Positions 6,951 to 30,433 of a DNA stretch of 64,000 nt are shown here, in pieces. The translations under genes and the position numbers were made by a program. Every line of letters begins with the position of its first letter. The stretch's first letter is position 1. The stretch comes from Cedecea davisae DSM 4568 (GTDB lineage Bacteria > Pseudomonadota > Gammaproteobacteria > Enterobacterales > Enterobacteriaceae), in contig NZ_KE161030.1 of assembly GCF_000412335.2 (NCBI RefSeq), positions 2,518,526 through 2,582,525 of the forward strand. The letters run 5' to 3'. Under the pieces are notes generated by a model. The model was not told the DNA's origin, made no database searches, and worked only from the letters and a program-made list of their open reading frames with translations.

Positions 6951-6982
6951 GAAAAAACTGCGGACGGGCTGCCCCGTCCGCA
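6951..6982 (-). terminator. Terminator-like hairpin between hcp and clpV
   Basis: On the minus strand a perfect 10-bp stem (6959-6968 with 6973-6982, TGCGGACGGG arms, 4-base loop) begins six bases after the hcp stop and is followed by GTTTTTTCC. This is a classical intrinsic terminator inside the T6SS operon. Partial read-through would give much more hcp mRNA than clpV/vgrG mRNA. Confidence 0.8.
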
Positions 6983-6987
6983 TCGGC

Positions 6988-7479: not shown

Positions 7480-7484
7480 GAGAT

Positions 7485-11217: not shown

Positions 11218-11228
11218 AAGTAGCCGCC

Positions 11229-12770
11229 TTACGCTTTCGCTTTCGGCATTTGAGAAACCAGCGACAGGTTGACGTCCATCCCTTCCACCTGGAAGTGCGG
11301 CACGGCGTAGAGTTTCACGCGGAAGAAGCCCGGGTTGTCTTCGATATCTTCTACGGTCACTTTGGCATCGCGCAGCGGGTGGGAAGCCTGCAGGTCGTCG
11401 CCCGGGTCGGTCATCTCGGTTACCAGACTGCGAACCCAGGTGTTCAGCTCCAGCTCAAGCAGGCGGCGGTCTTTGGTGGTGCCGATATTTTCACGCTGGA
11501 TAAGCTTCAGGTAATGCGCAATGCGTGAGAGCAGGAAGATGTACGGCAGGCGCGCGTTGATCCTGCTGTTAGCCGTAGCATCCGCCGTGTCGTACAGCGC
11601 CGGTTTCTGCGTGGAGTTAGCGGAGAAGAAGCACGCATAGTCGCGGTTTTTGTAGTACGACAGTGGGATAAAGCCCAGGTTAGCAAACTCGAATTCGCGG
11701 GTTTCCGGGATCATCACTTCAGACGGAATTTTCACCTGGTTGCCGGTGCCGAGATCGTAAAGGTGAATCGGCAAGTCCTGCACCGCACCGCCGGCCTGTG
11801 GGCCACGAATTTGCACGCACCAGCCGTTATTGATAAAGCTGCGCACCATATTGGCAGCAAAGGCAAACGAGGCGTTGGTCCACAGGTATTTATCGTGATC
11901 CGGGCCTTTGACCTCTTCCACATAGTTAAAGCTGCGCACCGGAACGGTATCCGGGCCATACGGCAGGCGGCCCAGCACGCGCGGCATCACCAGGCCGATG
12001 TAACGGCTGTCATCGGTGTCGCGGAAGGACTTCCATTTAATGTATTCCGCACGGTCGAAATAGTTGCCGATGTCTTTAATGGCCGCGACGTCTTCCATAT
12101 TGTCTTTAAGGAAGAACTGCGGCCCGGCGGAGCCGATAAACGGCATATGGGCAGCGGCAGAAACTTTAGAAATATTACGCAGCAGCGCCACGTCCTGAGC
12201 GGAGGCGTCGAACTCATAGGCTGAGATCAGCGCGCCAATCGGCTCCCCGCCCGGGGTGTCGTATTCTGCCACATAGGTTTGCAGGTAGAGACCGCTCTGG
12301 ATAATTTCCGGACTGTCTTCAAAGTCCTGACGCAGCGCGTCTTTAGACAGATCGAGCAGTTCAATTTTCACGTTCTGGCGGAAGTCGGTTTTATCCACCA
12401 GCGACTTCACGCCACGCCACAGGGACTCAACGGCCTGGAAATCGTCATGATGCATCACCGCGTCCAGCTGGCGACCAATTTGCTGGTCAAGCTCGGCGAT
12501 ATGATGGTCAATCAACGTCTTGTCCAGCTTATCCACTTTAGTACCCGCTTTGCTCAGGCACTCCAGGAATACCTGCATCCCGGCGGTAAGGCGCTCGTCG
12601 GCGGTAGCGTCAGACATCGCCTGGCTGTCCTGCCAGATATCCAGCGCGCTCAGCTCGGAAACGGGGCTAAGGTTAATTTTTTCAAACAGGGAAGCATAAA
12701 CGCCGCCCGCTTCCGGGCGTTCCAGAACCACGCTTTCGCCGGAGGTTGCATTTTCATTTTTTACAGACAT
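11229..12770 (-). CDS. tssC: T6SS sheath large subunit TssC (VipB)
   Basis: A 513-residue TssC, with the family features SVVLERPEAGGVYASLF at the N-terminus, the RVLGRLPYGPDTVPVRSF loop and the NTWVRSLVTEMTDPGDDL C-terminal region. It assembles with TssB into the contractile sheath. I prefer ATG 12770 (MSVKNENATSG); an in-frame ATG at 12776 two codons earlier is possible, as GAGAG sits between the two optimal spacings. It follows tssB by 39 bases. Confidence 0.96.
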   Translation of the reverse strand: MSVKNENATSGESVVLERPEAGGVYASLFEKINLSPVSELSALDIWQDSQAMSDATADERLTAGMQVFLECLSKAGTKVDKLDKTLIDHHIAELDQQIGRQLDAVMHHDDFQAVESLWRGVKSLVDKTDFRQNVKIELLDLSKDALRQDFEDSPEIIQSGLYLQTYVAEYDTPGGEPIGALISAYEFDASAQDVALLRNISKVSAAAHMPFIGSAGPQFFLKDNMEDVAAIKDIGNYFDRAEYIKWKSFRDTDDSRYIGLVMPRVLGRLPYGPDTVPVRSFNYVEEVKGPDHDKYLWTNASFAFAANMVRSFINNGWCVQIRGPQAGGAVQDLPIHLYDLGTGNQVKIPSEVMIPETREFEFANLGFIPLSYYKNRDYACFFSANSTQKPALYDTADATANSRINARLPYIFLLSRIAHYLKLIQRENIGTTKDRRLLELELNTWVRSLVTEMTDPGDDLQASHPLRDAKVTVEDIEDNPGFFRVKLYAVPHFQVEGMDVNLSLVSQMPKAKA

Positions 12771-12809
12771 CAGCATTTTCTCTCGTTAATCCGTTAAACA
12801 TCGCCGCCG

Positions 12810-13844: not shown

Positions 13845-14723
13845 TCAGGCGCAGCGGGCTTTAATTAATGTCATATTCTTTTCAAGATTTTTAGGAGAAT
13901 ATTCGGCCAGCTGAAAGTTGAAACTGTTGTTCTTATGCACGTTGAGGCGTTCCGGGCGCAGCATCTTCACGTTGCCGTCAATATCAAACAGCTTTGCGAT
14001 ATGCTCGGGATCCACCTTGCCGCTCGCCATGTTATTGAAATGCTTATTGATATCGTTAAGAGCGATTGGATGGGCGGCTTTGCGGCTCATCCAGTCCTCC
14101 AGACGAAGCGGCCGGGTAGCGCCGTCACCGAGATCGGACTGATAAAGAAAAGCGTCACGATGAGGTTTTGCGCTGGCCGGGAGATCGATAACGTAGGCGT
14201 GTCCCATCCCGCCGTCGTTTACCCGCAGAATAAAATGCTTATCGGCCGGCAGCTTCGCCAGCTGGTGTTGCAGTTGAGAAAGCGAAATAGAATGCCCTTT
14301 TTCAAAACTGTAGCTGTGCCGATCGTCATCAAGAAACAGTTTCATCACGTTGTTGGCGGTCACCCCACAGACCGGCGCGTTAAAGCGCTTACTGCTGCCC
14401 AGCATCGCCTCAACCTCCGGTTTGGAGCATCCCCAGTCGCGGGCGGTTTGTTCAATATTGTCATCAATGGCTTTCAGCAACGCTGAAGGGCTTTTGCGAT
14501 GAATCGGCGTATCGCCGTCGTCGCTATTTAGCAATACGTTGGCCCTGAGGCTGGTAGCGCTCAGCTTTGCAAAGTCCTGCAAATGCCGGGTTGAGGGGTT
14601 ATTGGCGCTCCGCGAAGCGGATGCCGGAGCGTTGGTACGGCCAACACGGCTATGCTGGCCGCTCTGGGTTTGCAGGCGTGGGTCAGGTTGCGATGGGCGA
14701 AAAGTGTTAATGAAGTTTCTCAT
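13845..14723 (-). CDS. cif: Cif-family cyclomodulin (predicted ubiquitin/NEDD8 glutamine deamidase)
   Basis: A 292-residue protein. Residues 1-60 are Ser/Asn/Gln/Pro-rich and look like a flexible secretion signal. The C-terminal domain has Cys119 (NAPVCGVTANNVMKLF), His175 (GGMGHAYVIDLP) and Gln195 (AFLYQSDLGDG). Spacing Cys-His 56 and His-Gln 20 equals the catalytic triad of EPEC Cif (C109/H165/Q185). Cif proteins deamidate Gln40 of NEDD8 and ubiquitin in host cells, stalling cullin ligases and the cell cycle; the known ones leave by type III secretion. No type III genes are in the window; the gene is instead 540 bases upstream of, and collinear with, the T6SS operon. It is a monocistron between two terminators and looks less GC-rich than its neighbours, suggesting transfer. 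Family call strong; activity and export route inferred. Confidence 0.85.
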   Translation of the reverse strand: MRNFINTFRPSQPDPRLQTQSGQHSRVGRTNAPASASRSANNPSTRHLQDFAKLSATSLRANVLLNSDDGDTPIHRKSPSALLKAIDDNIEQTARDWGCSKPEVEAMLGSSKRFNAPVCGVTANNVMKLFLDDDRHSYSFEKGHSISLSQLQHQLAKLPADKHFILRVNDGGMGHAYVIDLPASAKPHRDAFLYQSDLGDGATRPLRLEDWMSRKAAHPIALNDINKHFNNMASGKVDPEHIAKLFDIDGNVKMLRPERLNVHKNNSFNFQLAEYSPKNLEKNMTLIKARCA

Positions 14724-15623: not shown

Positions 15624-16991
15624 CTAACGGGTCAGCTGTTTCAGAACCAGGGTAAAGTCAGCTTTTATCTCTTCATCTTTTGCATGACGCCCATCGCGGA
15701 TAACCCAGCTTCCGCCGGTCATCACATCCTTAATCGGGTTAGCCGCGCAGGCAAAAATCCAGCGATTAAGCAGCTCGCTATCCTGGGCGGTAGCAAGGAA
15801 CGGGTCACCGCCGTCCAGCACCAGCAGGTCGGCGCGCCCGCCCACGGCCAGCTCGCCAATATTCTGGCCCAGCGCCATTTTCCCGCCTCGTAATGCCCCC
15901 TGGTACAACACGTTGCCCACATAAGGCTCGTTTGCCAGGTGGAGCAGGTTGCGGCGGCGGTTATTCAACCGCTGCCCGTATTCAAACCAGCGCAAGTCTT
16001 CGCTGACGCTGACGCTAATGTGGCTGTCGGAGCCGATGCCCCAATTCCCGCCCTGGTGCAGATAAGCCTGCCCCGGGAAAATGCCGTCACCCAGGTTTGC
16101 TTCGGTCGTCAGGCAAAGCCCGGCCACCGTACCGGAGTCAGCGATGAGCTTAGTTTCGCTCCCGGTAATGTGCGTGGCGTGTATCAGACACCAGTTTTCA
16201 TCGACAGGCATATTCTCATAAAGCCACTCCACCGGGCGCAGGCCGGACCAGGCCAGGCAGTCGTCCACCTCTTTTTGCTGCTCGGAAATATGGATGTGAA
16301 CAGGCTGAGGATGCGGCTGGCTTTCCAGTACGGCCCGCATTTGCTCGGGCGTAACGGCGCGCAGCGAATGGAAGCACAGCCCGGCGCGCTGCATGGGCTC
16401 GGCGGCAAGCTTAGAGACAATGCTGTCGTACAGCTTAAGGTAACCGTCAGTCTGGTTGATAAAGCGGCTTTGCCCCGCAGAGGCAGGCTGCCCGCCGAAG
16501 CCGGAATGGGTATAAAGTACCGGCAGCAGGGTCAGGCCAATTCCACTAGTTTTTGCGGCCTGAGAAATACGCAGCGCCAGTTCGGCAGGCTGGGCGTAGG
16601 CTTTGCCGCCGCTGTCGTGGTGCAGGTAATGAAACTCGGCCACCGAGGTATATCCGGCTTTAAGCATTTCGATATACAAATAGCTGGCGATGGTTTCCAG
16701 CTGTTCCGGAGTGATTTTACCCACCAGCCGATACATCAAATCTCGCCAGGTCCAGAAGCTGTCCGCCGGGTCGCCGACCACTTCCGTCAGTCCCGCCATT
16801 GCGCGTTGAAAGGCGTGGGAATGGAGGTTAGGCATACCGGGAACCACAAAGCCTTCCAGCCGGATGCTTTCGTCATCCGCTTTGGCGTTAACTTCAACGG
16901 CGGTGATAGTGCCCTGCCCTGAAACGCTTAATTTGACATTCTCTGCCCAGCCCTGCGGCAGAAGCGCCTTCGCCGCGAAATATACCGCCAT
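15624..16991 (-). CDS. hutF: Formimidoylglutamate deiminase HutF
   Basis: A 455-residue amidohydrolase-superfamily enzyme. Metal ligands: H57 and H59 in MPNLHSHAFQRAMAG, a His in HIHISEQQKEV, and the Asp in GSDSHISVS. HutF converts N-formimino-L-glutamate to N-formyl-L-glutamate and ammonia, after which HutG releases formate. This is the five-step histidine route known from Pseudomonas, not the four-step route (formiminoglutamase) of Klebsiella. It is transcribed divergently from hutC over tandem HutC-type operators, so HutC should control it. Confidence 0.93.
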   Translation of the reverse strand: MAVYFAAKALLPQGWAENVKLSVSGQGTITAVEVNAKADDESIRLEGFVVPGMPNLHSHAFQRAMAGLTEVVGDPADSFWTWRDLMYRLVGKITPEQLETIASYLYIEMLKAGYTSVAEFHYLHHDSGGKAYAQPAELALRISQAAKTSGIGLTLLPVLYTHSGFGGQPASAGQSRFINQTDGYLKLYDSIVSKLAAEPMQRAGLCFHSLRAVTPEQMRAVLESQPHPQPVHIHISEQQKEVDDCLAWSGLRPVEWLYENMPVDENWCLIHATHITGSETKLIADSGTVAGLCLTTEANLGDGIFPGQAYLHQGGNWGIGSDSHISVSVSEDLRWFEYGQRLNNRRRNLLHLANEPYVGNVLYQGALRGGKMALGQNIGELAVGGRADLLVLDGGDPFLATAQDSELLNRWIFACAANPIKDVMTGGSWVIRDGRHAKDEEIKADFTLVLKQLTR

Positions 16992-17020
16992 ATCAGCACC
17001 CCGGTTCGATGTTAATCAAT

Positions 17021-17046
17021 TGTATATACATGCATGTATATATACA
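17021..17046. promoter_or_regulatory. Tandem HutC-like operators between hutF and hutC
   Basis: TGTATATACA (17021-17030) and TGTATATATACA (17035-17046) are two palindromes separated by TGCA. The same core recurs at 26631-26640 and, as TTGTATGTACAA, at 26283-26294. GntR/HutC repressors of Pseudomonas bind TGTATNNACA-type sites. The site is placed to shut both divergent promoters. Confidence 0.75.
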
Positions 17047-17098: not shown

Positions 17099-17860
17099 AT
17101 GGCACAAAGCGACGTTTTTAAAGCAGCGGCAGAGACGGAAAGTCTGGAGCAGCCGGCCCCCTATTATGAGCGGGTCAAAAGCATCATTAAGACCAATATT
17201 CATAGCGGACTTTGGCCGGTAAATTACCGCGTGCCGTCCGAAAGCGAGCTGGTGAATCAGTTCGGTTACAGCAGGATGACCATCAACCGCGCCCTGCGCG
17301 AGCTGACCTCCGAAGGCCTTCTGGTGCGCATGCAGGGCATCGGCACTTTTGTAGCCGAAGTCCGCGGGCAGTCTGCGCTGCTGGAAATCAATAATATTGC
17401 CGACGAGATTGCCAGCCGTGGCCACCGCCACCACGCACGCGTTCTGGAGCTGACTCAAGTCTATGCCGACGCGCAGCAGGCGCTGGCGTTCAACCTGCCA
17501 AAAGGCAGCCGCCTGTTCCACTCGCTGATTTGCCACTACGAAAACGGCGTGCCGGTGATGCTGGAAGACAGGCTGGTTAACTCGCTCATCGTACCCGACT
17601 ATTTCCAGCAGGATTTCACCCGCATTACGCCAAACGCCTATCTTTCTTCTATCGCGCCTATTGTCGAAGGTGAGCACATCATCGAGGCGGTAAACGTTAC
17701 GCGCGAAGAGTGCGTTTATCTGGAGATAGACGAGCAGACTCCGTGCCTGCAAGTTAACCGCCGCACCTGGACCGGGCGGCAAAATAAAAAAATCGTCACC
17801 AGCGTGCGCCTCGTATATCCCGGCTCGCGCTACCGCCTTGAAGGGAGCATGCACAAATGA
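17099..17860 (+). CDS. hutC: Histidine-utilisation repressor HutC (GntR family, UTRA domain)
   Basis: A 253-residue regulator. N-terminal winged helix (YYERVKSIIKTNI, RVPSESELVNQFGYSRMT, LTSEGLLVRMQGIGTFV, residues about 20-88) and a C-terminal UTRA ligand domain (about 105-245). HutC represses hut genes until urocanate binds UTRA. Operator-like palindromes lie in front of hutF/hutC, hutU and the transporter-lyase operon, so one regulator may control all three; thiourocanate could be a second inducer (inference). The hutD start overlaps its end by four bases. Confidence 0.92.
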   Translation: MAQSDVFKAAAETESLEQPAPYYERVKSIIKTNIHSGLWPVNYRVPSESELVNQFGYSRMTINRALRELTSEGLLVRMQGIGTFVAEVRGQSALLEINNIADEIASRGHRHHARVLELTQVYADAQQALAFNLPKGSRLFHSLICHYENGVPVMLEDRLVNSLIVPDYFQQDFTRITPNAYLSSIAPIVEGEHIIEAVNVTREECVYLEIDEQTPCLQVNRRTWTGRQNKKIVTSVRLVYPGSRYRLEGSMHK

Positions 17861-18411
17861 TTCGCCTGCTGCCCTATGCCGACAGCCCGGAGATGCCGTG
17901 GAAAAACGGCCTGGGCGTAACGCGCGAGATCTCTCGCCATCCGGCTGTGGAGGCCTATGACTGGCGTATTTCGGTCGCCACTATTCGCGACGATGGCCCC
18001 TTCTCTCGTTTCAGCGGCTATCTGCGCAATATCAGCGTGCTGGAAGGCGAAGGCATGTTCCTGACTATCGACGACGAAGAAAGCGGGTTAATTGCGCCGT
18101 TTCAGGCCACCGACTTTAACGGCGAGAGCGAGGTTTCCTGCAAAATTCACGGCGGCCCGCTGCTGGACTTCAACGTTATCTATAAATCAGAAACAACTAC
18201 GGCCGCCGTAAGCTGGCTGCGAGACGGAGAGTGGTCAGAGCAACAAAATACCCAGTTGCTGTTCAATGCCGGAGAAACTCTGGAGCTTGAGGTGAACGGC
18301 CAGCATTATGCTCTGGGGCATTATGACAGCCTGCTGATTGGCGCTCCGGCAAGCGTGGCGGTCGCATCAGGCCAGAATGCCCGGTTCGCCCGCGTAGTCA
18401 TCGGGCAGTAA
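17857..18411 (+). CDS. hutD: HutD-family cupin protein
   Basis: A 184-residue double-stranded beta-helix (cupin) protein. The N-terminal MPWKNGLGVTREI and DWRISVATIRDDGPFSRFSG segments are the HutD family signature. HutD co-occurs with hut genes in many proteobacteria and has been proposed to tune hut expression by binding formylglutamate or a similar intermediate; its exact function is not settled. ATGA overlap with hutC means they are co-translated. Confidence 0.92.
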   Translation: MIRLLPYADSPEMPWKNGLGVTREISRHPAVEAYDWRISVATIRDDGPFSRFSGYLRNISVLEGEGMFLTIDDEESGLIAPFQATDFNGESEVSCKIHGGPLLDFNVIYKSETTTAAVSWLRDGEWSEQQNTQLLFNAGETLELEVNGQHYALGHYDSLLIGAPASVAVASGQNARFARVVIGQ

Positions 18412-18442: not shown

Positions 18443-19210
18443 TCAGCGGCCTTTGAACTCGGGCCGCTGTTTGCTTTTAAACGCTTCAAGCCCCGCCGTG
18501 CGGTCCTCGCTGTCGGCAATCAACGCCGAAAGCACTCTTTCATAAGCTACGCCCGCGCTGAGCGGCATTTCGTAGCTGGCGGCCACCGCTTTTTTAATCA
18601 TTACCGCAGCCAGCGGAGCCGCTTTTGCAACCTGCCCGGCGAGCGCCAGCGCCTGCTGTTCAAGTTCATCGGCGGCAACAATGCGGCTCACCAGTCCGGC
18701 CTGAATAGCCTCCTGAGCGTTGATCCTTCTGCCGCCGAGCAGCATCTCCATCGCCAGCGACTTGCCCACCGCCCGCACCAGCCTTTGCGTGCCGCCCGCG
18801 CCGGGGATAACGCCGATATGGCTTTCCGGCAGCCCGAACTGCGCCGCCTCGTCGGCGATGATGATATCGCACAGCAGCGCCAGCTCCAGCCCGCCTCCCA
18901 GCGCATAGCCGGAAACGGCGGCAATCAGCGGTTTTTCAATTTCCCCAACCCGGTCCCATTTTTCACTAAAGCCGCTGCGCCATAACTCAGTGGCGGAAGC
19001 GGAGGCCAGGGTGCCGGTGTCCGCTCCGGCGCTAAAAGCCTTCGGAGAGCCAAGCAGCACAATTGCCCGGACTTCCGGCTGCCCATCCAGCTGCTTTAAG
19101 GTGTTTACCAGCTCGTCCAGCATGTCAGCAGTCAGCGCATTGTATTTCTGCGGGCGATTAAGCGTGACGACGGCAACCGCGCCTTCGAGGCGGCATAAAA
19201 TGTCACTCAT
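18443..19210 (-). CDS. Enoyl-CoA hydratase/isomerase family (crotonase) enzyme
   Basis: A 255-residue crotonase. Oxyanion-hole segments KAFSAGADTGTL and YALGGGLELALLCD; the two acid-base residues of true hydratases are present at E109 and E129 (FGLPESHIGVIPGAGGTQRL). It should add water to an alpha,beta-unsaturated acyl-CoA. Last gene of the eight-gene minus-strand operon; its start overlaps the dehydrogenase stop by eight bases. In context the substrate is probably the CoA ester of the unsaturated acid made by the lyase, e.g. (thio)urocanoyl-CoA. That is inference; a carnitine/crotonobetaine-like role is an alternative. Confidence 0.88.
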   Translation of the reverse strand: MSDILCRLEGAVAVVTLNRPQKYNALTADMLDELVNTLKQLDGQPEVRAIVLLGSPKAFSAGADTGTLASASATELWRSGFSEKWDRVGEIEKPLIAAVSGYALGGGLELALLCDIIIADEAAQFGLPESHIGVIPGAGGTQRLVRAVGKSLAMEMLLGGRRINAQEAIQAGLVSRIVAADELEQQALALAGQVAKAAPLAAVMIKKAVAASYEMPLSAGVAYERVLSALIADSEDRTAGLEAFKSKQRPEFKGR

Positions 19211-20099
19211 CTGCCGCGCTCCCGCCGGTGAGTCCCTTCACAGTTTCATCACGCTTGCGCATTGCGGCGGCGGCCGTTTCCGGCGTCCAGGCGTAGAAAC
19301 CTTCCCCGCTTTTGACCCCAAGCTGATTATCCGCAACCTTTTGCTTCAGCCACGCGGGCAGGCTGTCGCTATTGTCCAGCGCCGGAAGCAGAATCCCCGC
19401 AACCTTCTCAACCGTGTCCAGACCGGCAAAATCCATCAGCTTCATCGGCCCCATCGCCGCCCAGCGCGGAGCCAGCGTGCGCTGTACCGCCCGGTCAACG
19501 TCCTCGACCGAGCCGATCCCCGCATCCACCAGATACAGCGCCTCCCGCAGCATCGCGTATTGCAGCCGATTGATGATAAAGCCGGGAATATCCTGGTTAA
19601 CGGTAATCGTCTCTTTACCCAACTGGCGGCAGATATCACGTATCCGCTCGCAGACCTCATCGGCGGTTTTCTCGCCGCGAACAATTTCAATCATCGGCAT
19701 GGTATCCGCCGGGTTAAACCAGTGCATACCGATAAGCCGCTGCGGCTGGCTAAGGCCCGAAGCCAACAGCGTGATAGAAACGCTGGAGGTGTTGGTCGTT
19801 ATCAGGCACTCAGGGCCGACCAGCTGTTCGACGGTTTTCAGCACGCTTTTTTTGAGCGCCACGTCTTCCGCCACGTTTTCAGAGACCAGGTCGGCCCCGG
19901 CGAGGCAGCTTTCAAGCCCGGTGGTAAACTCAACGCCGCCCTGCGCGCCGAGCGATGCCACAATCGAGCGAGCTTTATCCAGCGTCTGCTCCGAGCGTGA
20001 CCACAGGCTTACGCTAAACCCCGCGCGGGCCATCACTACGGCAATCCTGGCGCCCATCGTTCCGGCACCCACAACCGCCACCTTTTTCATTTGAGCCAT
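19203..20099 (-). CDS. 3-hydroxyacyl-CoA dehydrogenase (short, single-domain)
   Basis: A 298-residue NAD-dependent enzyme. Rossmann loop GAGTMG (11-16); catalytic pair H126 and E138 in GMHWFNPADTMPMIEIV (12 residues apart as in mammalian HADH); NRLQYAMLREALYLVDAG helix in the C-terminal dimer domain. It should oxidise the 3-hydroxyacyl-CoA made by the crotonase encoded next to it. L-carnitine dehydrogenase is a close relative, so a 3-hydroxy acid substrate without CoA cannot be excluded. It follows the CoA-transferase gene by 16 bases. No thiolase is encoded in the operon. Confidence 0.88.
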   Translation of the reverse strand: MAQMKKVAVVGAGTMGARIAVVMARAGFSVSLWSRSEQTLDKARSIVASLGAQGGVEFTTGLESCLAGADLVSENVAEDVALKKSVLKTVEQLVGPECLITTNTSSVSITLLASGLSQPQRLIGMHWFNPADTMPMIEIVRGEKTADEVCERIRDICRQLGKETITVNQDIPGFIINRLQYAMLREALYLVDAGIGSVEDVDRAVQRTLAPRWAAMGPMKLMDFAGLDTVEKVAGILLPALDNSDSLPAWLKQKVADNQLGVKSGEGFYAWTPETAAAAMRKRDETVKGLTGGSAADE

Positions 20100-20115: not shown

Positions 20116-21312
20116 TTAAATCACGCCCTGCGCTCTTAGCTGAGTAAGAGTGGCCTGGTCGATAGCCAAAATTTCACTCAGCACGCTGTCGGTGTGCTCC
20201 CCAAGAGACGGCGGAACCAGGGACGGCTCGACCGTTACCGCGCTCATTTTTACCGGCTGCGGCACGATAGCGATATCACCCGCGGTTGGGTGCTGAACCC
20301 GCTTAACCAGTTCGCGCTCGCGCGCATAATCGCTGGTAAGGATCTCCTCAAGACGCAGAACCGCAGAGGCAGGAACCCCCGCGTTATCCAGCAGGGCCTG
20401 AGCGTCGCTAACGGTTTTATCTGCCAGCCAGCGTTCAATTTCTTTACGCAATGGCTGCTGGTTAGCCAGCCGCAGCGGATCGGTAAGGTAGAGCGGATCG
20501 GCTGCCAGCTCCGGCCTTTCCATCGCCGTACACAGCTGGCGGAACAGCTTGTCGTTAGCCACGGCAATTACGATATGCCCGTCCTGAGCCGGATAGCTGT
20601 CCATCGGGGCGCTGATGGGGTGCGCGTTGCCCAGCCGCCCGGCGGAAGGCTGGCCGCCAATCCACTGGGTCAGGGAAACCATTTGCAGCGTCACCATGGT
20701 GTCGAGCATTGAGACATCCAGATGCTGGCCTTTACCGCTAATTCCGCGCTGCAACAACGCGGCAAGTACCGCCCAGCTGCCGTATAGCCCGGCGACCACA
20801 TCCCCGATGGCGTCGCCCACTCGGGTCGGCTCGCCTTGCGCCCAGCCGGTCACCTGCATAATGCCGCCGTAAGCCTGCACAATGTGGTCGTAGGCGGCCT
20901 TATGCGCCATCGCCCCCTGCTGGCCAAAGCCGGAAATACTGGCGTAAACCAGCCGCGGGTTAATCTCCTGAAGCGTCTGGTAATCAATGCCGAGACGCTT
21001 AGTCACGCCTGGGCGGAAGTTCTCCACCAGCACGTCGGCTTGTGCCACCAGCTGTTTAAGAATTTCCAGCCCTTCCGGCGTTTTTAAATCCAGCGTGACG
21101 CTTTTTTTGCCGTGGTTGAGCTGCATAAAATAGCTGCTCTCCCCGGCGATATGCGGGGTAAAGCTGCGCGAGTCGTCGCCGCTGCCCGGCATTTCAATCT
21201 TAATAACCTCGGCACCGAGGTCATTGAGCAGCGAGGCGCACCACGGCCCGGCCAGCACGCGGGACAAATCAAGCACCCGAATGCCCTTCAGCGGCTGCAA
21301 AGCTTCACTCAT
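20116..21312 (-). CDS. CaiB/BaiF-type (class III) CoA transferase
   Basis: A 398-residue class III CoA transferase; the ATG at 21312 has GAGGAG seven bases before it and overlaps the lyase stop by eight bases. Motifs: VLDLSRVLAGPWCASLLNDLGAEVIKIE at the N-terminus, ENFRPGV, and the catalytic Asp at 167 (PTRVGDAIGD), the position of D169 in FRC and CaiB. It moves CoA from a donor thioester to a carboxylate. Set between a lyase making an unsaturated acid and a hydratase acting on unsaturated acyl-CoA, it is the logical activation step. Substrate not determinable from sequence. Confidence 0.88.
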   Translation of the reverse strand: MSEALQPLKGIRVLDLSRVLAGPWCASLLNDLGAEVIKIEMPGSGDDSRSFTPHIAGESSYFMQLNHGKKSVTLDLKTPEGLEILKQLVAQADVLVENFRPGVTKRLGIDYQTLQEINPRLVYASISGFGQQGAMAHKAAYDHIVQAYGGIMQVTGWAQGEPTRVGDAIGDVVAGLYGSWAVLAALLQRGISGKGQHLDVSMLDTMVTLQMVSLTQWIGGQPSAGRLGNAHPISAPMDSYPAQDGHIVIAVANDKLFRQLCTAMERPELAADPLYLTDPLRLANQQPLRKEIERWLADKTVSDAQALLDNAGVPASAVLRLEEILTSDYARERELVKRVQHPTAGDIAIVPQPVKMSAVTVEPSLVPPSLGEHTDSVLSEILAIDQATLTQLRAQGVI

Positions 21313-22864
21313 TTTCGTTCTCCTCAATCAGGGAGCACAGCCTGCGGCTGAGTTCACCGGCCGCAATCAGGTCGCGAACGGCATGCATATCAGGATAAAG
21401 CGCGGTGTCCGTTTCGCGGAACGGGACGCGTTCACGAACCATACCCAGCGTCAGCTCGCTGCCGACGGAAGCCCGCAGCGGCCGATGAAACTCCAGCGCC
21501 TGGCAGGCGCACAGCAGTTCAATGGCGACAATATCGACCGCATTCGAAACGCCCAGTAAAGCCTTACGCGCGGAGGAAACGCCCATGCTGATGTGGTCTT
21601 CCTGCCCGGCGCATGTGGTAACGGTATGCACGCTGGCGGGCGCGGCCAGGCTGCGGTTATCCCCGGCAAGCGCGGCGGCAACATAAGGCGGGATCATCAT
21701 GCCCGAGTTGGCACCGCTTCTGCCGACAAGAAAGGCGGGTAGCCCGCTGAGATGCACGTTGGTAATGCGGTCGGAACGAGCCTGCGAAGCGGTACTGACC
21801 TGCGCGATAGCAACCGCCAACGAGTCCAGCGCCAGAGCCAGCGGTGCGCCGTGCCCGTTGCCGCCCGGCAGAATAACCAGCTCGTCGTGCTCAATTAAAA
21901 ATACCGGGTTATCGGTGACCGAGTTCAGTTCGATTTCAACAATACGGCGGCAATGAGCCAGCTGGTCGCGCACCGCACCGTGAATTTGCGGAATACAGCG
22001 CAGGCTGAGGGCGTCCTGCACGCGGTGGTCGCGGTAACGAGCAAAAATTTCACTGCCGTCCAGCAGGCGGCGCAAAATAGCGGCCGTTTGCCGCTGCCCG
22101 TCATGGGGGCGCAGAGCGTGCAGCCGCGCGTCGTAACCGCGAGTATTGCCCTTCAGCGCCTCCAGGCACATGCCTCCGGCCATATCGGCCACCGGCAGCA
22201 GGCGTTCAAAATCATGTATCGCCAGGCAGGCAAGACCGGTTATTTCATAGGTGCCGCTGATAAGCGCATGCCCTTCACGCGGGCCGGGAATACGTGGCGC
22301 AATCCCCGCTTTTTCCAGCGCTTGGGCAGAGGGCAGCAGCTCGCCCTGATACCAACATTTTCCTTCGCCAAACAGCGACAGGCCAATATGCGCGGTAGCA
22401 ATCAGGTAACCCACGGAGCCGCTGGCAGGTGACCAGGGCGTCACCCTGCGGTTAAGCATTTCGGCCATACGCTGTACCAGCTCAGGGCTAACCCCGCTGT
22501 ACCCCTGCAACAGCGACTTAAGCATCACCGCCATCATGGCGCGCACCTCGCGCACCGGCAAATCTGGCCCCATCCCGCAGGCGTGGCTGCGCAGCATATT
22601 GAGCTGCACGCTGGCAATTTGGTCCGCAGAAAGTCTTTCCGTGACCAGGTCGCCCACCCCGGTGGTCAGCCCATAAATGACCTTCCCTTCATCAATTGCC
22701 CGGCGAATATAGCCGCTCACATTCTCCATGTTCGCCAGCGCGTCAGGCGCGAGTGCAACCTGCGCGCCGTCGGCAATGCGTACCAGCTGTTCGATGGTGG
22801 TCGGTGTGATGCCCAGGGTTACGGCATTATGCTGCTGCCCGGAGGAGCCAGTTTGTGTTGTCAT
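21305..22864 (-). CDS. Histidase-superfamily lyase lacking the MIO triad (ergothionase/betaine-lyase candidate)
   Basis: A 519-residue aromatic amino-acid lyase fold (PF00221). Kept: Tyr64 (KVIYGLTTGVGDL, HAL Y53), His94 (LRSHACGMG, HAL H83), Gln283, Arg289 and Glu422 (QEDHISMG, HAL E414). Lost: after GSVG (149-152) the sequence goes straight to YLIATAHIGLSLFGEG, three residues shorter than histidase, so Ala-Ser-Gly that makes the MIO cofactor is deleted; the upstream PASG is an alignment decoy. HAL N195 is Ser203 and HAL Y280 is Leu286. An enzyme without MIO should not deaminate free histidine but could expel trimethylamine, as ergothionase does. Co-transcribed with a quaternary-amine importer and CoA enzymes. 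Annotation pipelines would call it hutH; I think that is wrong. Confidence 0.82.
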   Translation of the reverse strand: MTTQTGSSGQQHNAVTLGITPTTIEQLVRIADGAQVALAPDALANMENVSGYIRRAIDEGKVIYGLTTGVGDLVTERLSADQIASVQLNMLRSHACGMGPDLPVREVRAMMAVMLKSLLQGYSGVSPELVQRMAEMLNRRVTPWSPASGSVGYLIATAHIGLSLFGEGKCWYQGELLPSAQALEKAGIAPRIPGPREGHALISGTYEITGLACLAIHDFERLLPVADMAGGMCLEALKGNTRGYDARLHALRPHDGQRQTAAILRRLLDGSEIFARYRDHRVQDALSLRCIPQIHGAVRDQLAHCRRIVEIELNSVTDNPVFLIEHDELVILPGGNGHGAPLALALDSLAVAIAQVSTASQARSDRITNVHLSGLPAFLVGRSGANSGMMIPPYVAAALAGDNRSLAAPASVHTVTTCAGQEDHISMGVSSARKALLGVSNAVDIVAIELLCACQALEFHRPLRASVGSELTLGMVRERVPFRETDTALYPDMHAVRDLIAAGELSRRLCSLIEENENE

Positions 22865-23792: not shown

Positions 23793-24473
23793 TCACTGGG
23801 TTTTGATACGTCGGGAAATGCCGCGCGACACAACGAATTTCACCGCTACTGAAAAGAACACGTCAACAAACAGCGCCAGCAGGGCAACCAGCAGCGCACC
23901 GGCGGTCATTTGGGCAAAATCGTTCGCCGCCCTGCCGTCGATAATCAGGCGGCCAAGACCGCCCAGAGAGACATAGGCCGCGATAGTGGCGGTAGAAATA
24001 ATTTGCAGCGTGGCGCTTCGAATGCCGGAAAGGATCAGCGGCGTGGCGCACGGCAGCTCAACCTGGGTCAGGATCTGGAAAGGCGTCAGGCCGATGCCCT
24101 TTGCCGCATCATGAACGCTGGGGTCTACGGAGCGAATTCCGGCGTGAACGCCGAGCGCAATCGGCGGCAGCGCCAGCACCACCAGCACGATGATACACGG
24201 CAGGATAAACGCCATATCCGACTCAAAATAGCCCGCCATCACGATGACCAGCAGGATTATCAGGCCAAAGGATGGCAGCGAGCGCAGCGCGTTAGTGGAG
24301 CCGATCAGCAAGGCTTCCCCCTTCCCGGTGTGGCCGGTATAGCAGCCAACCGGGAAAGCAATAGCGATAGCAATCGCCAGCGCGGCGGCGCTGTAGCCGA
24401 TGTGCTGCGCCAGCAGAGGAAAGATGCCGTCGTCGCCATACCAGTGGCTAAGCGTGAAGAACCAGTCAGACAT
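23793..24473 (-). CDS. ABC transporter permease (OpuCD/YehW type)
   Basis: A 226-residue inner-membrane permease with about six helices. The EAA-type loop DAAKGIGLTPFQILTQVELPCATPLILSGIR lies near 135-165 and contacts the ATPase. It pairs with the permease encoded three bases upstream, as in OpuC/OsmU systems with two different permease subunits. Third gene of the eight-gene operon. Confidence 0.9.
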   Translation of the reverse strand: MSDWFFTLSHWYGDDGIFPLLAQHIGYSAAALAIAIAIAFPVGCYTGHTGKGEALLIGSTNALRSLPSFGLIILLVIVMAGYFESDMAFILPCIIVLVVLALPPIALGVHAGIRSVDPSVHDAAKGIGLTPFQILTQVELPCATPLILSGIRSATLQIISTATIAAYVSLGGLGRLIIDGRAANDFAQMTAGALLVALLALFVDVFFSVAVKFVVSRGISRRIKTQ

Positions 24474-24476
24474 ACG

Positions 24477-25121
24477 TTATCCCCTTACCGGCTGCCAGCG
24501 GCTTAATGAGCGGGTGCCGGCGACCACCAGGCAGTCCAGTACAAACGCCAGCACGATACACAGCACGATGCCGGCGATGATTGGCGTAAGAAATTGCAGC
24601 TGGAACCCCTGAGTAAACAGCGAACCCAGCTGCGGCGCGCCGATGAGTGCGGCAACGGAAACAATGCTGACGTTAGACACCACCGCCACGCGCAGCCCGG
24701 AACCGATAACCGGCACCGCCAGAGGAAGGTCAACCTGGAAGAACTGATGAATCGGCTTATAGCCCAGGGCAAACGCCGACTGCCGGGTGTCGGTTGGCAC
24801 CGAGTCCAGCCCGTCGCACACCGTTCTCACCAGCAGCGCAAAGCTATAAATGGTCAGCGCCACCACCACATTTATCGGGTCGAGGATCTGCGTATTCAGC
24901 AGCGGCGGGAGCAGCACAAACAGCGCCAGGGACGGAATGGTGTACAGCAGCCCAAACAGGTTGAGCACCACGCCCTTCACTCGCGGCATGCTGTTGACCA
25001 GCCAGCCCACGGGAATAGCCAGCAGCAGGCCAATCAGAATCGGCGTTACCGACAGATAGAGATGCCACAGCAGCAGATTGAAGATCTTGTCGCTTTGCGA
25101 CCACAGCCAGTCAAACCTCAT
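24477..25121 (-). CDS. ABC transporter permease (OpuCB/YehY type)
   Basis: A 214-residue inner-membrane permease with about five or six helices and the EAA-like loop AFALGYKPIHQFFQVDLPLAVPVIGSGLR. It is the second permease of the transporter. Its ATG overlaps the ATPase stop by four bases (ATGA) and its stop is three bases from the next permease, so the subunits are made in step. Confidence 0.9.
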   Translation of the reverse strand: MRFDWLWSQSDKIFNLLLWHLYLSVTPILIGLLLAIPVGWLVNSMPRVKGVVLNLFGLLYTIPSLALFVLLPPLLNTQILDPINVVVALTIYSFALLVRTVCDGLDSVPTDTRQSAFALGYKPIHQFFQVDLPLAVPVIGSGLRVAVVSNVSIVSVAALIGAPQLGSLFTQGFQLQFLTPIIAGIVLCIVLAFVLDCLVVAGTRSLSRWQPVRG

Positions 25122-26215
25122 ACCGCCTCCCGGGCCATGCTCTTGCAGGCGTCCAGCACATGGTCGAGCGCGAGGGTGCCCAGCACTTCGCTGCGCTCGC
25201 CAATCACTACCGCCCGGTGGCAGGGGGAGCTAAGCGCGGAGTCCAGCATCTGGCGCAACGTGCCGCTTTGCGGGTAGAAGGTCGCCCCGAGGTTAACGTG
25301 TTCCGGCACAACGGCCTCAACCTGCTGATGGGTGTCGAACCAGCCGCAGGCTTTCCCCTCGCGGGTGACCAGCAGCCAGCGCTGGTCGGCAATATTACGC
25401 GCCATCTCAATTGGCGTTCCCAGTTCGGCGGTGGGTTCCATCAGCATTGAGGCCAGCGGCCCGGAGTTGTAGAAGCTCAGCTTGCGGTAGCCGCGGTCGC
25501 GGCCGATAAAGTCCGCCACAAAATCGCTCTGCGGGGCATTAAGCAGCTCCCCCGGCGAAGCCAGCTGCCCGAGTTTGCCGCCGGGTTTCAGCACCGCCAC
25601 CAGGTCACCCAACTTCATCGCTTCATCGATATCGTGGGTGACCATAATGATGGTTTTACTCACCTCTTTTTGAATACGCAGAAACTCTTCCTGGAGCTGC
25701 TCACGCACGACCGGGTCTACGGCGCTGAAAGGTTCATCCATCAGCATAAACTCCGGGTCGGCGGCCAGGGCTCTGGCAACGCCAACGCGCTGCTGCTGCC
25801 CGCCCGAAAGCTGCCACGGGTAACGCTTTGCCAACTGCGGCGCAAGGCCCACCACTTCCAGCAGTTCGGCCGCTCTGGTCCTGGCCTTGTTTTTGCTCGC
25901 ACCATTGAGGATTGCCGTGGTGGCAATGTTGTCGATGATGTTTTTGTGCGGAAACAGTCCCGCGTTCTGGATGACATAGCCGATACGCCGCCGCAGCTGC
26001 ACCACATCCATTCCTGAAGTGGACTCGCCGTTAAGCAGGATTTCACCCGATGAAGGCTCAATCAGCCGATTGATCATGCGTAATGACGTCGTTTTGCCGC
26101 AGCCGGAAGGGCCAACCAGCACGGTGATTTTGCCCCCGGGAGCGACCAGGTTCAGGCCATCCACCACTACCGTTCCGTCGTCGTAAAACTTGGTCACATT
26201 GTTGAAAGTAATCAT
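25118..26215 (-). CDS. ABC transporter ATPase with C-terminal CBS region (OpuCA/ProV type)
   Basis: A 365-residue ATPase, first gene of the operon. Walker A GPSGCGKTT (35-43), signature LSGGQQQR, Walker B FMLMDEPFSAVDPVVREQLQ, then a C-terminal region (about 265-360) with CBS-like segments (LLVTREGKACGWFD, CHRAVVIGERSEVLGTLALD). CBS domains in OpuA/OpuC ATPases sense ionic strength or nucleotide. GAGG seven bases before ATG. Expressed from a sigma-54-like promoter at 26297-26312 overlapped downstream by a HutC-like operator. Confidence 0.92.
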   Translation of the reverse strand: MITFNNVTKFYDDGTVVVDGLNLVAPGGKITVLVGPSGCGKTTSLRMINRLIEPSSGEILLNGESTSGMDVVQLRRRIGYVIQNAGLFPHKNIIDNIATTAILNGASKNKARTRAAELLEVVGLAPQLAKRYPWQLSGGQQQRVGVARALAADPEFMLMDEPFSAVDPVVREQLQEEFLRIQKEVSKTIIMVTHDIDEAMKLGDLVAVLKPGGKLGQLASPGELLNAPQSDFVADFIGRDRGYRKLSFYNSGPLASMLMEPTAELGTPIEMARNIADQRWLLVTREGKACGWFDTHQQVEAVVPEHVNLGATFYPQSGTLRQMLDSALSSPCHRAVVIGERSEVLGTLALDHVLDACKSMAREAV

Positions 26216-26282: not shown

Positions 26283-26294
26283 TTGTATGTACAA
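26283..26294. promoter_or_regulatory. HutC-like operator of the transporter-lyase operon
   Basis: TTGTATGTACAA: TTGTA half-sites around a two-base centre, same core as the hutF/hutC operators. It covers the expected transcription start of the sigma-54 promoter just upstream on the minus strand. Confidence 0.7.
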
Positions 26295-26624: not shown

Positions 26625-26630
26625 TAATCA

Positions 26631-26640
26631 TGTATATACA
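26631..26640. promoter_or_regulatory. HutC-like operator of hutUIG
   Basis: TGTATATACA, identical to the hutF/hutC core at 17021-17030, 70 bases before the hutU ATG. Confidence 0.7.
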
Positions 26641-26710
26641 AGCAGACGAAAAAATGACATGTTATTTTTCGTGAGCATTTCTCCCGCTATTCCTAAACAA
26701 GGTGAACCCC

Positions 26711-28384
26711 ATGAAGAGTGAGTTTTCTCGTTACCGCGATGTTGAAATCAGGGCGCCGCGTGGCACAAAGCTGAACGCAAAGAGCTGGCTGACCGAAGCC
26801 CCGCTGCGCATGTTGATGAATAACCTCGATCCCGACGTCGCCGAAAATCCAAAAGAACTGGTGGTGTACGGCGGTATTGGCCGGGCGGCGAGAAACTGGG
26901 AATGCTTCGATAAAATGGTTGAAGCTCTTAAAGAGCTTAATGATGACGAAACCCTGCTGGTGCAGTCGGGCAAGCCGGTCGGGGTATTTAAAACCCATAC
27001 CAACGCGCCGCGCGTGCTGATTGCCAACTCCAACCTGGTTCCCCACTGGGCAAACTGGGAGCACTTTAACGAGCTGGACGCCAAAGGGCTGGCGATGTAC
27101 GGGCAGATGACGGCAGGCTCCTGGATTTACATCGGCAGCCAGGGGATTGTGCAGGGTACTTACGAAACCTTCGTTGAAGCTGGTCGCCAGCATTTTGGCG
27201 GCAGCCTGACCGGGCGCTGGGTACTGACGGCGGGCCTCGGCGGCATGGGCGGCGCTCAGCCGCTGGCCGCAACTCTGGCCGGAGCCTGCTCCTTGAATAT
27301 TGAGTGCCAGCAGTCGCGCATCGACTTCCGCCTGCGTACCGGCTACGTGGACGAGCAGGCCAAAGATCTCGACCATGCGCTGGCGCTTCTCAAACGCTAC
27401 ACGTCCGAAGGCAAAGCGGTTTCTATCGCCCTGCACGGCAATGCGGCGGAAGTTTTACCCGAGCTGGTTAAGCGCGGCGTACGCCCGGATATCGTCACCG
27501 ACCAGACCAGCGCCCACGATCCGCTCAACGGCTACCTGCCGGTTGGCTGGAGCTGGGAAGAGTACCGCGAGCGCGCCGCCGCTGAACCTGCGGCAGTGAT
27601 TCAGGCGGCTAAAGCCTCTATGGCGGAGCACGTCAAAGCGATGCTTGCCTTCCAGCAGCAGGGCATTCCGACCTTCGATTACGGGAATAATATCCGCCAG
27701 ATGGCAAAAGAGATGGGCGTCAGTAACGCCTTTGACTTCCCCGGCTTTGTGCCGGCCTATATTCGCCCGCTGTTCTGCCGCGGCATCGGCCCGTTCCGCT
27801 GGGCCGCGCTGTCCGGGGATCCGGAGGATATCTACCGCACGGACGCTAAAGTGAAAGAGCTGATAGCGGACGACAAGCACCTGCACCGCTGGCTGGATAT
27901 GGCGAGAGAGCGCATCAGCTTCCAGGGTTTACCGGCCCGCATCTGCTGGGTAGGCCTGGGCCAGCGCGCGCGCCTGGGTCTGGCGTTTAACGAAATGGTC
28001 AGAAGCGGCGAGCTTTCTGCTCCGATTGTTATCGGCCGCGACCATCTGGACTCCGGCTCCGTTGCCAGCCCGAACCGCGAAACCGAAGCCATGCAGGATG
28101 GCTCCGATGCGGTTTCCGACTGGCCTCTGCTGAACGCCCTGCTGAATACCGCCAGCGGCGCAACCTGGGTTTCTCTGCACCACGGCGGCGGCGTAGGCAT
28201 GGGCTTCTCCCAGCACTCCGGGATGGTCATCGTTTGTGACGGCACCGACGAAGCGGCAGAGCGAATCGCCCGCGTGCTGAATAACGATCCTGCGACCGGC
28301 GTAATGCGCCACGCGGACGCTGGCTATGAAATTGCTATCGAGTGCGCAAAAGAGCATGGCCTGAATCTGCCTATGCTTAAGTAA
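26711..28384 (+). CDS. hutU: Urocanate hydratase HutU
   Basis: A 557-residue urocanase. Start at ATG 26711 with AAGGTG before it. Tightly bound NAD motif [15 protein letters not shown] (about residue 175), [15 protein letters not shown], and the active-site Cys region [15 protein letters not shown]. It adds water across urocanate to give 4-imidazolone-5-propionate in the cytoplasm. First gene of hutU-hutI-hutG; the usual downstream hutH is missing here, so the urocanate must come from the MIO-less lyase or from a histidase elsewhere. Full length, no defects seen. Confidence 0.96.
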
Positions 28385-28434
28385 TGTCCCCGTGGCGCGG
28401 CAGATGTCGCGCCACATCCTCAAGAGAGAATGCT

Positions 28435-29643
28435 ATGCGGATTTTATGGCACAACTGCCAAATCGTCACCATGGCCGAAGGCCGTTACAACCTGATAAAA
28501 GAGGCATCACTGATTACCGGAGACGGCAAACTACTGTGGCTCGGCGAAGATGCCGGGCGGCCTGACATTGCCGTTGATGAACACAAAGATTTGCAAGGCA
28601 GGCTGGTGACACCGGGGCTTATCGACTGCCATACCCACAGCGTGTTTGGCGGCGACCGCAGCCAGGAATTCGAAATGCGCCTTAACGGTGCAACCTATGC
28701 CGACATTGCCGCAGCCGGCGGCGGCATCGCCAGCACGGTGAAAGCCACCCGCGAGGCCAGCGAGCAGCAATTGCTGGAAAGCGCCCGCCGCCGCATTAAC
28801 GCCCTGCGCAAAGACGGCATTACCACCCTTGAAGTGAAATCGGGCTACGGCCTGAGCCTCGAAGATGAACGCAAAATGCTGCGCGTTATTCGCCAACTGG
28901 GGCAAAGCCTGCCGTTAACGCTACACAGCACCTGCCTTGCCGCCCATGCCCTGCCCCCTGAATTTAAAGGCCGCAGCGACGAGTTCATCGCCGAGATTTG
29001 CGACAGCTGGCTACCGGCGCTGCACGCCGAAGACCTGGTTGATGCGGTAGATGCCTTCTGCGAACACCTTGCGTTCTCCGTTGCCCAGGTTGAACGTGTG
29101 TTTATTAAGGCCCGCGAACTTGGCCTGCCGGTAAAACTGCACGCCGAACAGCTCTCGTTGCTGCACGGAGCCGGGCTTGCCGCCCGTTACAATGCGCTTT
29201 CTGCCGACCATCTTGAATACCTGTGCGAAGAAGATATTGCCCTGATGGCCGAACACGGCACCACCGCCGTGGTGCTGCCGGGTGCATTTTATTTCCTGCG
29301 CGAAACCAAAAAGCCGCCGATTGAGCTGCTGCGCCAATATCAGGTGCCGATGGCGATTTCCAGCGACCTTAATCCCGGCACTTCTCCGGTGCTGTCCCTG
29401 CGGCTGATGATGAACATGGCCTGCACGCTGTTCGGGCTAACGCCGGAAGAAGCCCTGGCTGGCGTTACGTTGCATGCGGCACGCGCGCTTGGCGTCAGCG
29501 ATACCGCAGGCTCGCTTGAGCCGGGGAAAGAAGCGAACTTCGTGGCGTGGGAAATCGACCATCCCGCAGAGCTTAGCTACTGGCTGGGCGGCACATTGTC
29601 AAAACAGGTTATTTATCAGGGTAAAGAGGTGTGGAATGACTAA
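28435..29643 (+). CDS. hutI: Imidazolonepropionase HutI
   Basis: A 402-residue amidohydrolase; start at ATG 28435 (AAGAGAG upstream), not the earlier in-frame GTG. Metal ligands H66 and H68 in [16 protein letters not shown], then KLHAEQLS and [12 protein letters not shown]. It opens the imidazolone ring to N-formiminoglutamate, the substrate of HutF encoded 11 kb away. Fifty bases after hutU; its last codons overlap the hutG start. Confidence 0.96.
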
Positions 29644-30433
29644 CGCATTTGAGCTACACAAAGGCAACCTGCCGCTGCTTATCAGCATGCCGCACCCCGG
29701 CACTCGCCTGACGACGGAAGTAGCAAACGGGCTAACCGAACGAGCCAAAAAGCTCGAAGACACCGACTGGCATATTCCGCAGCTTTATCAACCCATTCGC
29801 GAAATGGGCGCCAGTATTCTTAGTGCCGGTTATTCACGCTATGTGGTTGATCTAAACCGCCCTGCCGACGATAAACCGCTTTATAACAGCGCAACCACCG
29901 GCTTATTTACGGATATTTTCTTTGACGGTGAACCGCTGTTTGAGGCCGGTAAAGCGCCAGATGAACAGGCCAAAGCGGCAATCTTAGAAAACATCTGGCA
30001 GCCCTACCATCAGGCTCTGGCTCAGGAACTGGCGCGGCTGCGGGAAACCTTTGGCTATGCCCTGCTCTGGGATGCACATTCGATAAAATCCGTGGTGCCA
30101 CGCCTGTTTGAAGGCCGCCTGCCGGACCTTAACTTCGGTACCGCCGACGGCACCAGTTGCTCCCCGGAACTCAGCGATGCCCTGCTGCACGCCAGCGCTG
30201 ACTTTACGGATTACAGCAAGGTGCTGAACGGGCGCTTCAAAGGCGGCTATATCACCCGGCATTACGGTTCGCCGCAGAACAATATTCATGCGGTACAGCT
30301 TGAAGTTGCCCAGTGTTGTTACATGGATGAAGAAACCTTCGTTTACTCCGACGAGAAAAGCGTTCCGTTCCAGCAGTTGCTGACCCGTTTGATTGGCACC
30401 GCGCTCGACTGGGGAAAACGGCACTACGGCTAA
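29636..30433 (+). CDS. hutG: N-formylglutamate deformylase HutG
   Basis: A 265-residue N-formylglutamate amidohydrolase; ATG 29636 overlaps the hutI stop by eight bases. Family features: [13 protein letters not shown] at the start, [18 protein letters not shown] (metal His) and [16 protein letters not shown] near the end. It releases formate and glutamate. Together with hutF it completes the five-step pathway; an arginase-type formiminoglutamase is absent. Confidence 0.93.

Follow-up and report, generated by a model that had tools for sequence, protein, structure and literature searches.

Two kinds of enzyme are the closest described systems to the protein considered here. Histidase (HutH), represented by the Pseudomonas putida enzyme (PDB 1B8F), carries an Ala-Ser-Gly triad that forms the electrophilic 4-methylidene-imidazol-5-one (MIO) group, whereas ergothionase, for which the structure of the Treponema denticola enzyme has been solved (PDB 6S7J/6S7Q), has the same PF00221 fold without the triad and releases trimethylamine. 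According to a 2026 paper on ergothioneine and trimethylamine N-oxide (PMC13405746), ergothionase lacks MIO and is restricted to few genera, in an analysis that leaves divergent homologues aside. Here, we consider a MIO-less PF00221 lyase that is encoded in a stretch of 64,000 nucleotides from Cedecea davisae DSM 4568 (contig NZ_KE161030.1, positions 2,518,526 to 2,582,525; hereafter called the window) and that lies among genes for histidine utilisation (hut). We hold it to be reasonably probable that this protein is a hercynine (histidine betaine) trimethylamine-lyase, which would provide urocanate for the Hut pathway.

The lyase scores 550.9 bits against PF00221, and its MIO site reads GSVGY---LIATAH, with GSVG at residues 149-152 and a lone Tyr153 standing for the ASGD of histidase, such that the alignment gives a net three residues fewer. 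The first-pass annotation, which was made from the sequence alone, had described the open reading frame and the missing Ala-Ser-Gly after GSVG, and both descriptions hold. It had also stated that exactly the three MIO residues are deleted. The net loss of three is right, but its exact placement depends on the alignment, because Asp145, which is invariant across 54 histidase-type rows, is altered in the window lyase as well. At the MIO position, these 54 rows have ASG (51), ACG (1) or X, the latter denoting MIO in PDB chains (2). The MIO-less site is found with an open frame in all 28 rows of the group that we term clade 1 (27 distinct, as L037 and L105 are the same; L numbers denote loci), which excludes a sequencing error in the window lyase. 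It is likewise present in 10/10 rows of a second group, clade 2 (with L017 and L047 coming from one genome). Rows were assigned to clade 1 when the window protein was their best match by BLAST, and the motif was not used for naming.

Residues were compared in an alignment of 100 rows, with positions in the numbering of P. putida histidine ammonia-lyase. The window lyase keeps Y53 (Tyr64), H83 (His94), Q277 (Gln283), R283 (Arg289) and E414 (Glu422), and these five are conserved in 28/28 clade-1 rows, down to 56% identity. Changed are N195 (Ser203), Y280 (Leu286), F329 (Gly337) and R354 (Ala362); the five retained residues and the replacement of the first two of these four had been correctly read in the first-pass annotation. 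Position 280 is Leu in all 44 MIO-less rows, including T. denticola ergothionase, and Tyr in all 54 histidase-type rows, a pattern whose mechanistic weight is restricted by long branches and common ancestry. From work on histidase, we take H83, M382 and E414 to bind the imidazole ring, R283 the carboxylate, and Y53 to be the base. The ring residues are histidase-like in 26/28 clade-1 rows (Met382 being Met390 in the window lyase), the exceptions being two Pantoea proteins with M382S; the same position is Gly in T. denticola ergothionase and Ala or Gly in a third MIO-less group, clade 3. A Lys or Tyr at position 386 was considered as a new catalytic residue and was dropped, since Tyr also occurs in 4/54 histidase-type rows and the Pantoea proteins have Cys.

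The C. davisae genome encodes a second PF00221 protein elsewhere on the chromosome, a MIO-bearing HutH with GSVGASGDLAPLAH, to which the window lyase is 41% identical. Against the histidase models, the window lyase scores 502.6 bits (TIGR01225, cut-off 539.15) and 523.7 bits (NF006871, cut-off 524), the latter shortfall being 0.3 bits only. With the HutH proteins of P. putida and of its own genome it shares the ring and carboxylate residues (H83, M382, E414, R283), the hut setting and a HutC-type operator, but it differs from them in the absence of the MIO triad and in Y280L, N195S, F329G and R354A.

The relationship to ergothionase is also one of likeness in some features and difference in others. 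Both proteins have Leu at position 280 and Ser at position 195 and retain His83, Arg283 and Glu414. However, the MIO site of the T. denticola enzyme is SSIGEGDITTLSH, with E-G-D rather than a lone Tyr, and the enzyme has Gly382 and Lys386 and retains F329. A search with the window lyase gave a top match of 348 bits, and ergothionase, at 186 bits, ranked below histidases and tyrosine enzymes. A 68-row tree, calculated after removal of the columns for MIO and Y280, gave 100/100 support each to clade 1, to clade 2, and to clade 3 together with ergothionase, and left the branching order of these three open. A quick 92-row tree that included the MIO columns joined clades 1 and 2 with a value of 89 in the Shimodaira-Hasegawa-like approximate likelihood ratio test, at a node that was not starred and that carries a long-branch warning. 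For thinning and because of long branches, 8 of the 100 rows had been removed for the larger tree and 32, those 8 among them, for the smaller one. By the approximately unbiased test, a single origin of the MIO loss was neither shown nor rejected (p = 0.35 for all MIO-less rows, 0.355 for clades 1 and 2), and a grouping of clade 1 with clade 3 and ergothionase, which had a slightly higher likelihood, was not rejected either (p = 0.648). Genes for thiourocanate hydratase or Ert proteins do not neighbour the lyase in the window and were seen only in the Pantoea loci L112 and L114.

Thus, ergothionase identity was set aside for the window lyase by motif, tree and neighbours. The first-pass annotation had called the protein a likely ergothionase, which is probably wrong, since it stands apart from the solved enzyme, has no E-[GA]-D motif, keeps Met382 and adjoins a gene for a true urocanate hydratase. 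Its statement that the protein is not HutH is right, and its more general proposal of a lyase that works without MIO and expels an amine ready to leave is supported, given the lost triad, Leu at position 280 in every MIO-less row, the separate HutH, and the alignment and tree named there as a check, which place no ASG at the MIO site and clade 1 in a group of its own.

The product is suggested by the genes around the lyase. The lyase and its ATP-binding cassette (ABC) importer genes are flanked by hutF, hutC and hutD on one side and by hutU, hutI and hutG on the other (Table 1), and the genome has one hutU copy, common to the lyase cluster and the separate HutH. These surrounding hut genes, the main clue to the product, were not mentioned in the first-pass annotation. 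A scan with two peptide patterns of a genome collection described as covering 84,980 species yielded 27 loci, 25 of them with a clade-1 lyase; these numbers are lower bounds. Five of the 25 have both hut genes and genes for coenzyme A (CoA) metabolism of the CaiB-transferase, hydratase and dehydrogenase type, eight, among them the broken locus L113, have hut genes but no CoA genes, six have CoA genes with no hut enzyme encoded close by, and three have importer and lyase only (in L110, a CaiB-like gene lies several kb away). Two further loci, from Pantoea, lie beside a gene for an S-methyl-thiourocanate-type hydratase, and the last is a short contig. True hutU (at least 73% identity) was present in 19/19 clade-1 genomes examined (19 of 25), and when these 19 were searched with the C. 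davisae HutH, a further match besides the lyase, counted irrespective of its MIO site, was present in 18; the exception was a Pectobacterium betavasculorum genome. In L113 and L038 (Enterobacter sp. EA-1), hutI, hutU, the lyase gene and hutF are split into several frames, which reflects either decay or assembly error.

In a sample of 25 Pectobacterium genomes, whose completeness is not stated, any PF00221 protein was found in three, hutU was found in the same three, and no MIO histidase was found in the 25. The sole PF00221 protein in these three genomes is the MIO-less lyase within the hut cluster (L098, L127, L128), and these three hut clusters are therefore without a known histidase feeding them. 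Under independence, the same three of 25 would be hit by chance once in 2300, a figure that reflects linkage and not function, because lyase and hutU share one cluster. A similar arrangement exists on plasmids, where 178 of 72,556 records matched the lyase at 60-80% identity (E 1e-150), 161 of them from Klebsiella. The MIO-less site was read in three of these plasmids (two Klebsiella, one E. coli), whose regions contain hutG, hutI, cytosine permease, hutU, the importer, the MIO-less lyase, hutD, hutC and hutF; no HutH annotation is present in the three regions, and the two Klebsiella records have one PF00221-like place each (H3, H8).

A further indication is provided by operators. For Pseudomonas, the HutC operator is given as TGTA-N2-TACA, and HutC as responding to urocanate, in PMC12977541. 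An operator of this form lies upstream of the ABC-lyase operon in the window, as would be the case for a member of the HutC regulon. The perfect TTGTATRTACAA occurs at two places in the 4.9-Mb genome, before the separate hutH and before the ABC-lyase operon, and palindromes with one mismatch occur at ten further places, two of them in the lyase cluster. With two mismatches allowed, the window has 9 palindromes compared to a shuffle mean of 3.8, with 5/100 shuffles reaching 9, such that their number is not striking. The 27 loci, 550,758 bases in all, contain the core TGTA-N2-TACA 46 times, and we read 44 of these occurrences as belonging to promoters of hut or lyase genes. Of the 25 clade-1 loci, 18 have the core before the ABC-lyase operon, among them L102-L106, where the stretch examined (~20 kb) is devoid of genes for hut enzymes; of the nine clade-2 loci, six have it before the gene for the binding protein and two more, L043 and L045, before hutU of the long operon. 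These counts are not independent, because the loci are related. Altogether, the operator positions make it probable that HutC controls the ABC-lyase operon. HutC-type repressor genes were also seen behind two CoA-type lyase operons near which hut enzyme genes are lacking (L102, 14462-15220, over the TIGR02018 cut-off; L106, 14402-15196, by BLAST).

Urocanate as the product is well supported by context, namely by the true type of HutU, by operators of the HutC type and by hut clusters that have no histidase. The histidase-like ring residues H83, M382 and E414 are in agreement with this. As to the substrate, the window lyase should not activate a primary amine, because it has no electrophile, and since this makes a primary amine a poor guess and ergothionase provides the precedent, trimethylamine would be the simplest leaving group. 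Hercynine is proposed because it yields both urocanate and trimethylamine. The sulfur contrast agrees with this, in that Met382 is present in 26/28 clade-1 rows compared to Gly, Ala or Ser in ergothionase, clade 3 and the Pantoea forms. In the mechanism that we envisage, the co-encoded importer would take up the substrate, and the lyase, with the fold of histidase, would cleave a C-N bond without MIO: His94, Met390 and Glu422 would hold the imidazole, Arg289 would bind the carboxylate and Tyr64 would act as the base, such that trimethylamine is eliminated from hercynine (N-alpha-trimethylhistidine) to give urocanate. HutU, HutI, HutF and HutG would then convert urocanate to glutamate, and HutC would repress the ABC-lyase operon until relieved by urocanate. 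The phrase "related betaine lyase" of the first-pass annotation is thus probably right, with hercynine as the most likely betaine, the counter-argument being the binding protein.

Indeed, several observations weigh against hercynine or against the Hut connection, and the binding protein is foremost among them. It belongs to PF04069 (159.5 bits), its best PDB match is EgtUC (95 bits), and the equivalents of EgtU Glu375 and Arg379 are retained (EgtU positions follow PMC9732360). However, the EgtU cage F/Y293, Y341, Y419 and Y443 reads Y, D, T and Q in the window protein, and Lys242 is gone as well. Four clade-3 binding proteins keep N339, Y341, Y443 and Lys242, with F at 419, and because they retain N, Y, F and Y, the loss of the cage in clade 1 is a real difference. 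Trimethylammonium as the importer ligand thus lacks backing from the cage residues. F244, Y293 and W376 are identical in 25/25 clade-1 binding-protein rows, and one might guess that these positions form an alternative aromatic cage. The first-pass annotation had described a co-transcribed importer for quaternary amines; this stands at the level of the family, not of the ligand site, where Lys242 and all but one of the four cage aromatics are missing. Co-transcription is suggested by gene order, with the genes for binding protein, two permeases and ATPase all preceding that of the lyase on its strand and ABC genes adjoining the lyase in 24/25 clade-1 loci (the exception, L111, is a 6.7-kb contig; in L107, L109 and L110, three of four ABC genes are in the list of open reading frames). 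Furthermore, plain urocanate does not account for the CoA genes, which in the window stand together with hut genes and in six clade-1 loci occur without hut enzymes nearby. With respect to the operators, genome-wide matches numbered 21 compared to 15 in the reversed control, such that one-mismatch sites are not enriched, and 7/25 clade-1 loci (L107-L112, L114) have no operator core before the operon. Lastly, a search with the clade-2 binding protein of L041 gave proteins that bind octopine (216 bits) and nopaline (204 bits) as its nearest relatives.

This last point, as well as the Asp, Thr and Gln in place of cage aromatics in clade 1, would fit a lyase for another N-substituted histidine (N-mono- or dimethylated, opine-like such as histopine, or a sugar adduct), from which a different amine leaves and urocanate is still made. 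There is room for such a substrate because the binding protein has no EgtU aromatic cage, and we regard this as unlikely, though worth bearing in mind. Against it stands Y280L, which is common to ergothionase, an enzyme that releases trimethylamine. Also, histopine was considered because of the OccJ-like binding protein, but the published keto-acid signature (OccJ paper, PMC5740067) is not matched: none of its five residues is kept in six aligned clade-2 binding proteins (S91V, N111A, T163V or L, A164Y, N202D), though that paper describes Asn202 as not critical. The clade-2 binding protein of L043 is ProX-like. Separately, an OccJ-like binding protein (by alignment) and a HutH-like gene were noticed beside hydantoinase-like genes (by eye) in L055 (2893-7040; genome G004), about 9-12 kb from a clade-1 operon.

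The clade-2 lyases themselves come from hut loci of Enterobacteriaceae and share with the window lyase the lone Tyr at the MIO site, Y280L and the presence of hut genes (9/9 loci, L040 with hutD only). They differ in that they are 41-43% identical to it, keep N195 and have F329P, and in that five of their loci (L041-L043, L045, L046) also encode a true HutH. Two of them (L041, 9046-10548; L043, 8989-10515) score 542.6 and 536.1 bits against NF006871, and because these scores exceed the cut-off of 524, this model alone would label both MIO-less proteins histidases. Pseudomonas hutH1/hutH2 was considered as a MIO-less pair that might already be described, but the account found of it gives no sequence.

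It is rather improbable that clade 1 is a second ergothionase lineage, which would convert ergothioneine or S-methylergothioneine to (methyl)thiourocanate and trimethylamine. This idea draws on the Pantoea clusters (L112, 2-11521; L114, 2-11479), in which a clade-1 lyase, 56 and 60% identical to the window lyase, stands with an ABC importer and a hydratase that scores best, below cut-off, as S-methyl thiourocanate hydratase, its gene being cut at the locus end. L112 also encodes ErtD and ErtE (over cut-offs) and, by score, a BisC-family S/N-oxide reductase; similar open reading frames were seen in L114 by eye. These clusters probably serve the utilisation of ergothioneine or S-methylergothioneine with a lyase unlike ergothionase. 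The window, however, has a true HutU and Met382, whereas the Pantoea forms have Ser382 and no HutC site. Clade 3 (GSIGEADLAPLAH), the third MIO-less group, is nearer to the described enzyme, its best PDB match being T. denticola ergothionase (239.7 bits). Five of its loci (L049, 9050-10594, and L051-L054) show the motif GSIGEADLAP or GSLSEADLAP and have His83 replaced by Arg, and in four of the five the lyase adjoins an importer whose binding protein keeps the cage residues; this Arg83 group is ergothionase-related but may act on another betaine.

Less probable still is a lyase for tyrosine betaine or hypaphorine, whose aryl-acrylate product would be degraded via the CaiB, hydratase and dehydrogenase genes. 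Such CoA genes are found with the lyase in the window as well as in 11/25 loci (5 with and 6 without hut genes); in L109, only the dehydrogenase adjoins, and the transferase and hydratase (45 and 36% identity) lie beyond a regulator gene. But H83/M382/E414 are of the histidase type and not the M/L-K-Q of two rows that resemble phenylalanine ammonia-lyase, eight hut-linked loci have no CoA genes, and HutC-type sites precede the operon even where hut genes are absent. Finally, the protein might be a homologue of histidase that has no catalytic activity or serves in regulation, for which the lost electrophile and the changes at N195, Y280, F329 and R354 could be cited. This is very unlikely in view of the five residues kept throughout clade 1, the linked import genes and the status of the lyase as the only PF00221 protein in three hut-bearing Pectobacterium genomes.

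The coordinates of the features are given in Table 1. Outside the hut cluster, type VI secretion-like genes (VgrG, ClpV, TssK, TssC) were recognized by eye from translations at ~1788-12776 of the window, and a 292-amino-acid protein without assigned family (13845-14723) adjoins them.

Table 1. Features of the lyase cluster, in positions of the window
Feature	Position	Strand	Remark
hutF, formimidoylglutamate deiminase	15624..16991	-	
HutC-type palindrome between hutF and hutC	17020..17031		one mismatch
hutC, GntR/UTRA repressor	17099..17860	+	81% identical to annotated hutC of L033
hutD	17857..18411	+	
Enoyl-CoA hydratase, accessory	18443..19210	-	
3-Hydroxyacyl-CoA dehydrogenase, accessory	19203..20099	-	
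CaiB-type CoA transferase, accessory	20116..21327	-	absent from many relatives
MIO-less PF00221 lyase (clade 1), proposed hercynine trimethylamine-lyase	21305..22864	-	519 amino acids
ABC substrate-binding protein, PF04069	22875..23768	-	best PDB match EgtUC; cage residues not kept
ABC permease	23793..24473	-	
ABC permease	24477..25121	-	
ABC ATPase	25118..26215	-	best NCBIfam match ProV subfamily, below cut-off
HutC-type palindrome TTGTATGTACAA upstream of ABC-lyase operon	26283..26294		perfect
HutC-type palindrome upstream of hutU	26630..26641		one mismatch
hutU, true urocanate hydratase	26702..28384	+	TIGR01228 1019.6 bits vs thiourocanate hydratase 694.5
hutI, imidazolonepropionase	28384..29643	+	72% identical to annotated hutI of L033
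hutG, N-formylglutamate deformylase	29636..30433	+	75% identical to annotated hutG of L033; start picked by eye within open reading frame 29474-30433

Taking the relatives together, we lean slightly towards the view that there is a class of MIO-free histidine-betaine lyases, apart from ergothionase in sequence, by which bacteria can operate the Hut pathway in the absence of histidase, with urocanate and trimethylamine obtained from hercynine. Such a class would be under the control of HutC, include an offshoot that tolerates sulfur, and be distributed over several genera and plasmids as a module that brings its own importer and hut genes. In the titles and abstract beginnings of the open-licence PubMed Central literature searched, no hercynine lyase or breakdown of hercynine to urocanate is described. 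The annotated records that we viewed name such lyases histidine or aromatic amino acid (ammonia-)lyase, and for this reason annotation would miss a possible source of trimethylamine. The family also lends itself to asking what MIO is needed for, since it comprises natural enzymes with and without MIO whose ring-binding residues are the same. If our proposal is true, bacteria would have a dedicated pathway for the degradation of hercynine, the sulfur-free precursor of ergothioneine, which would feed into histidine catabolism and set trimethylamine free.

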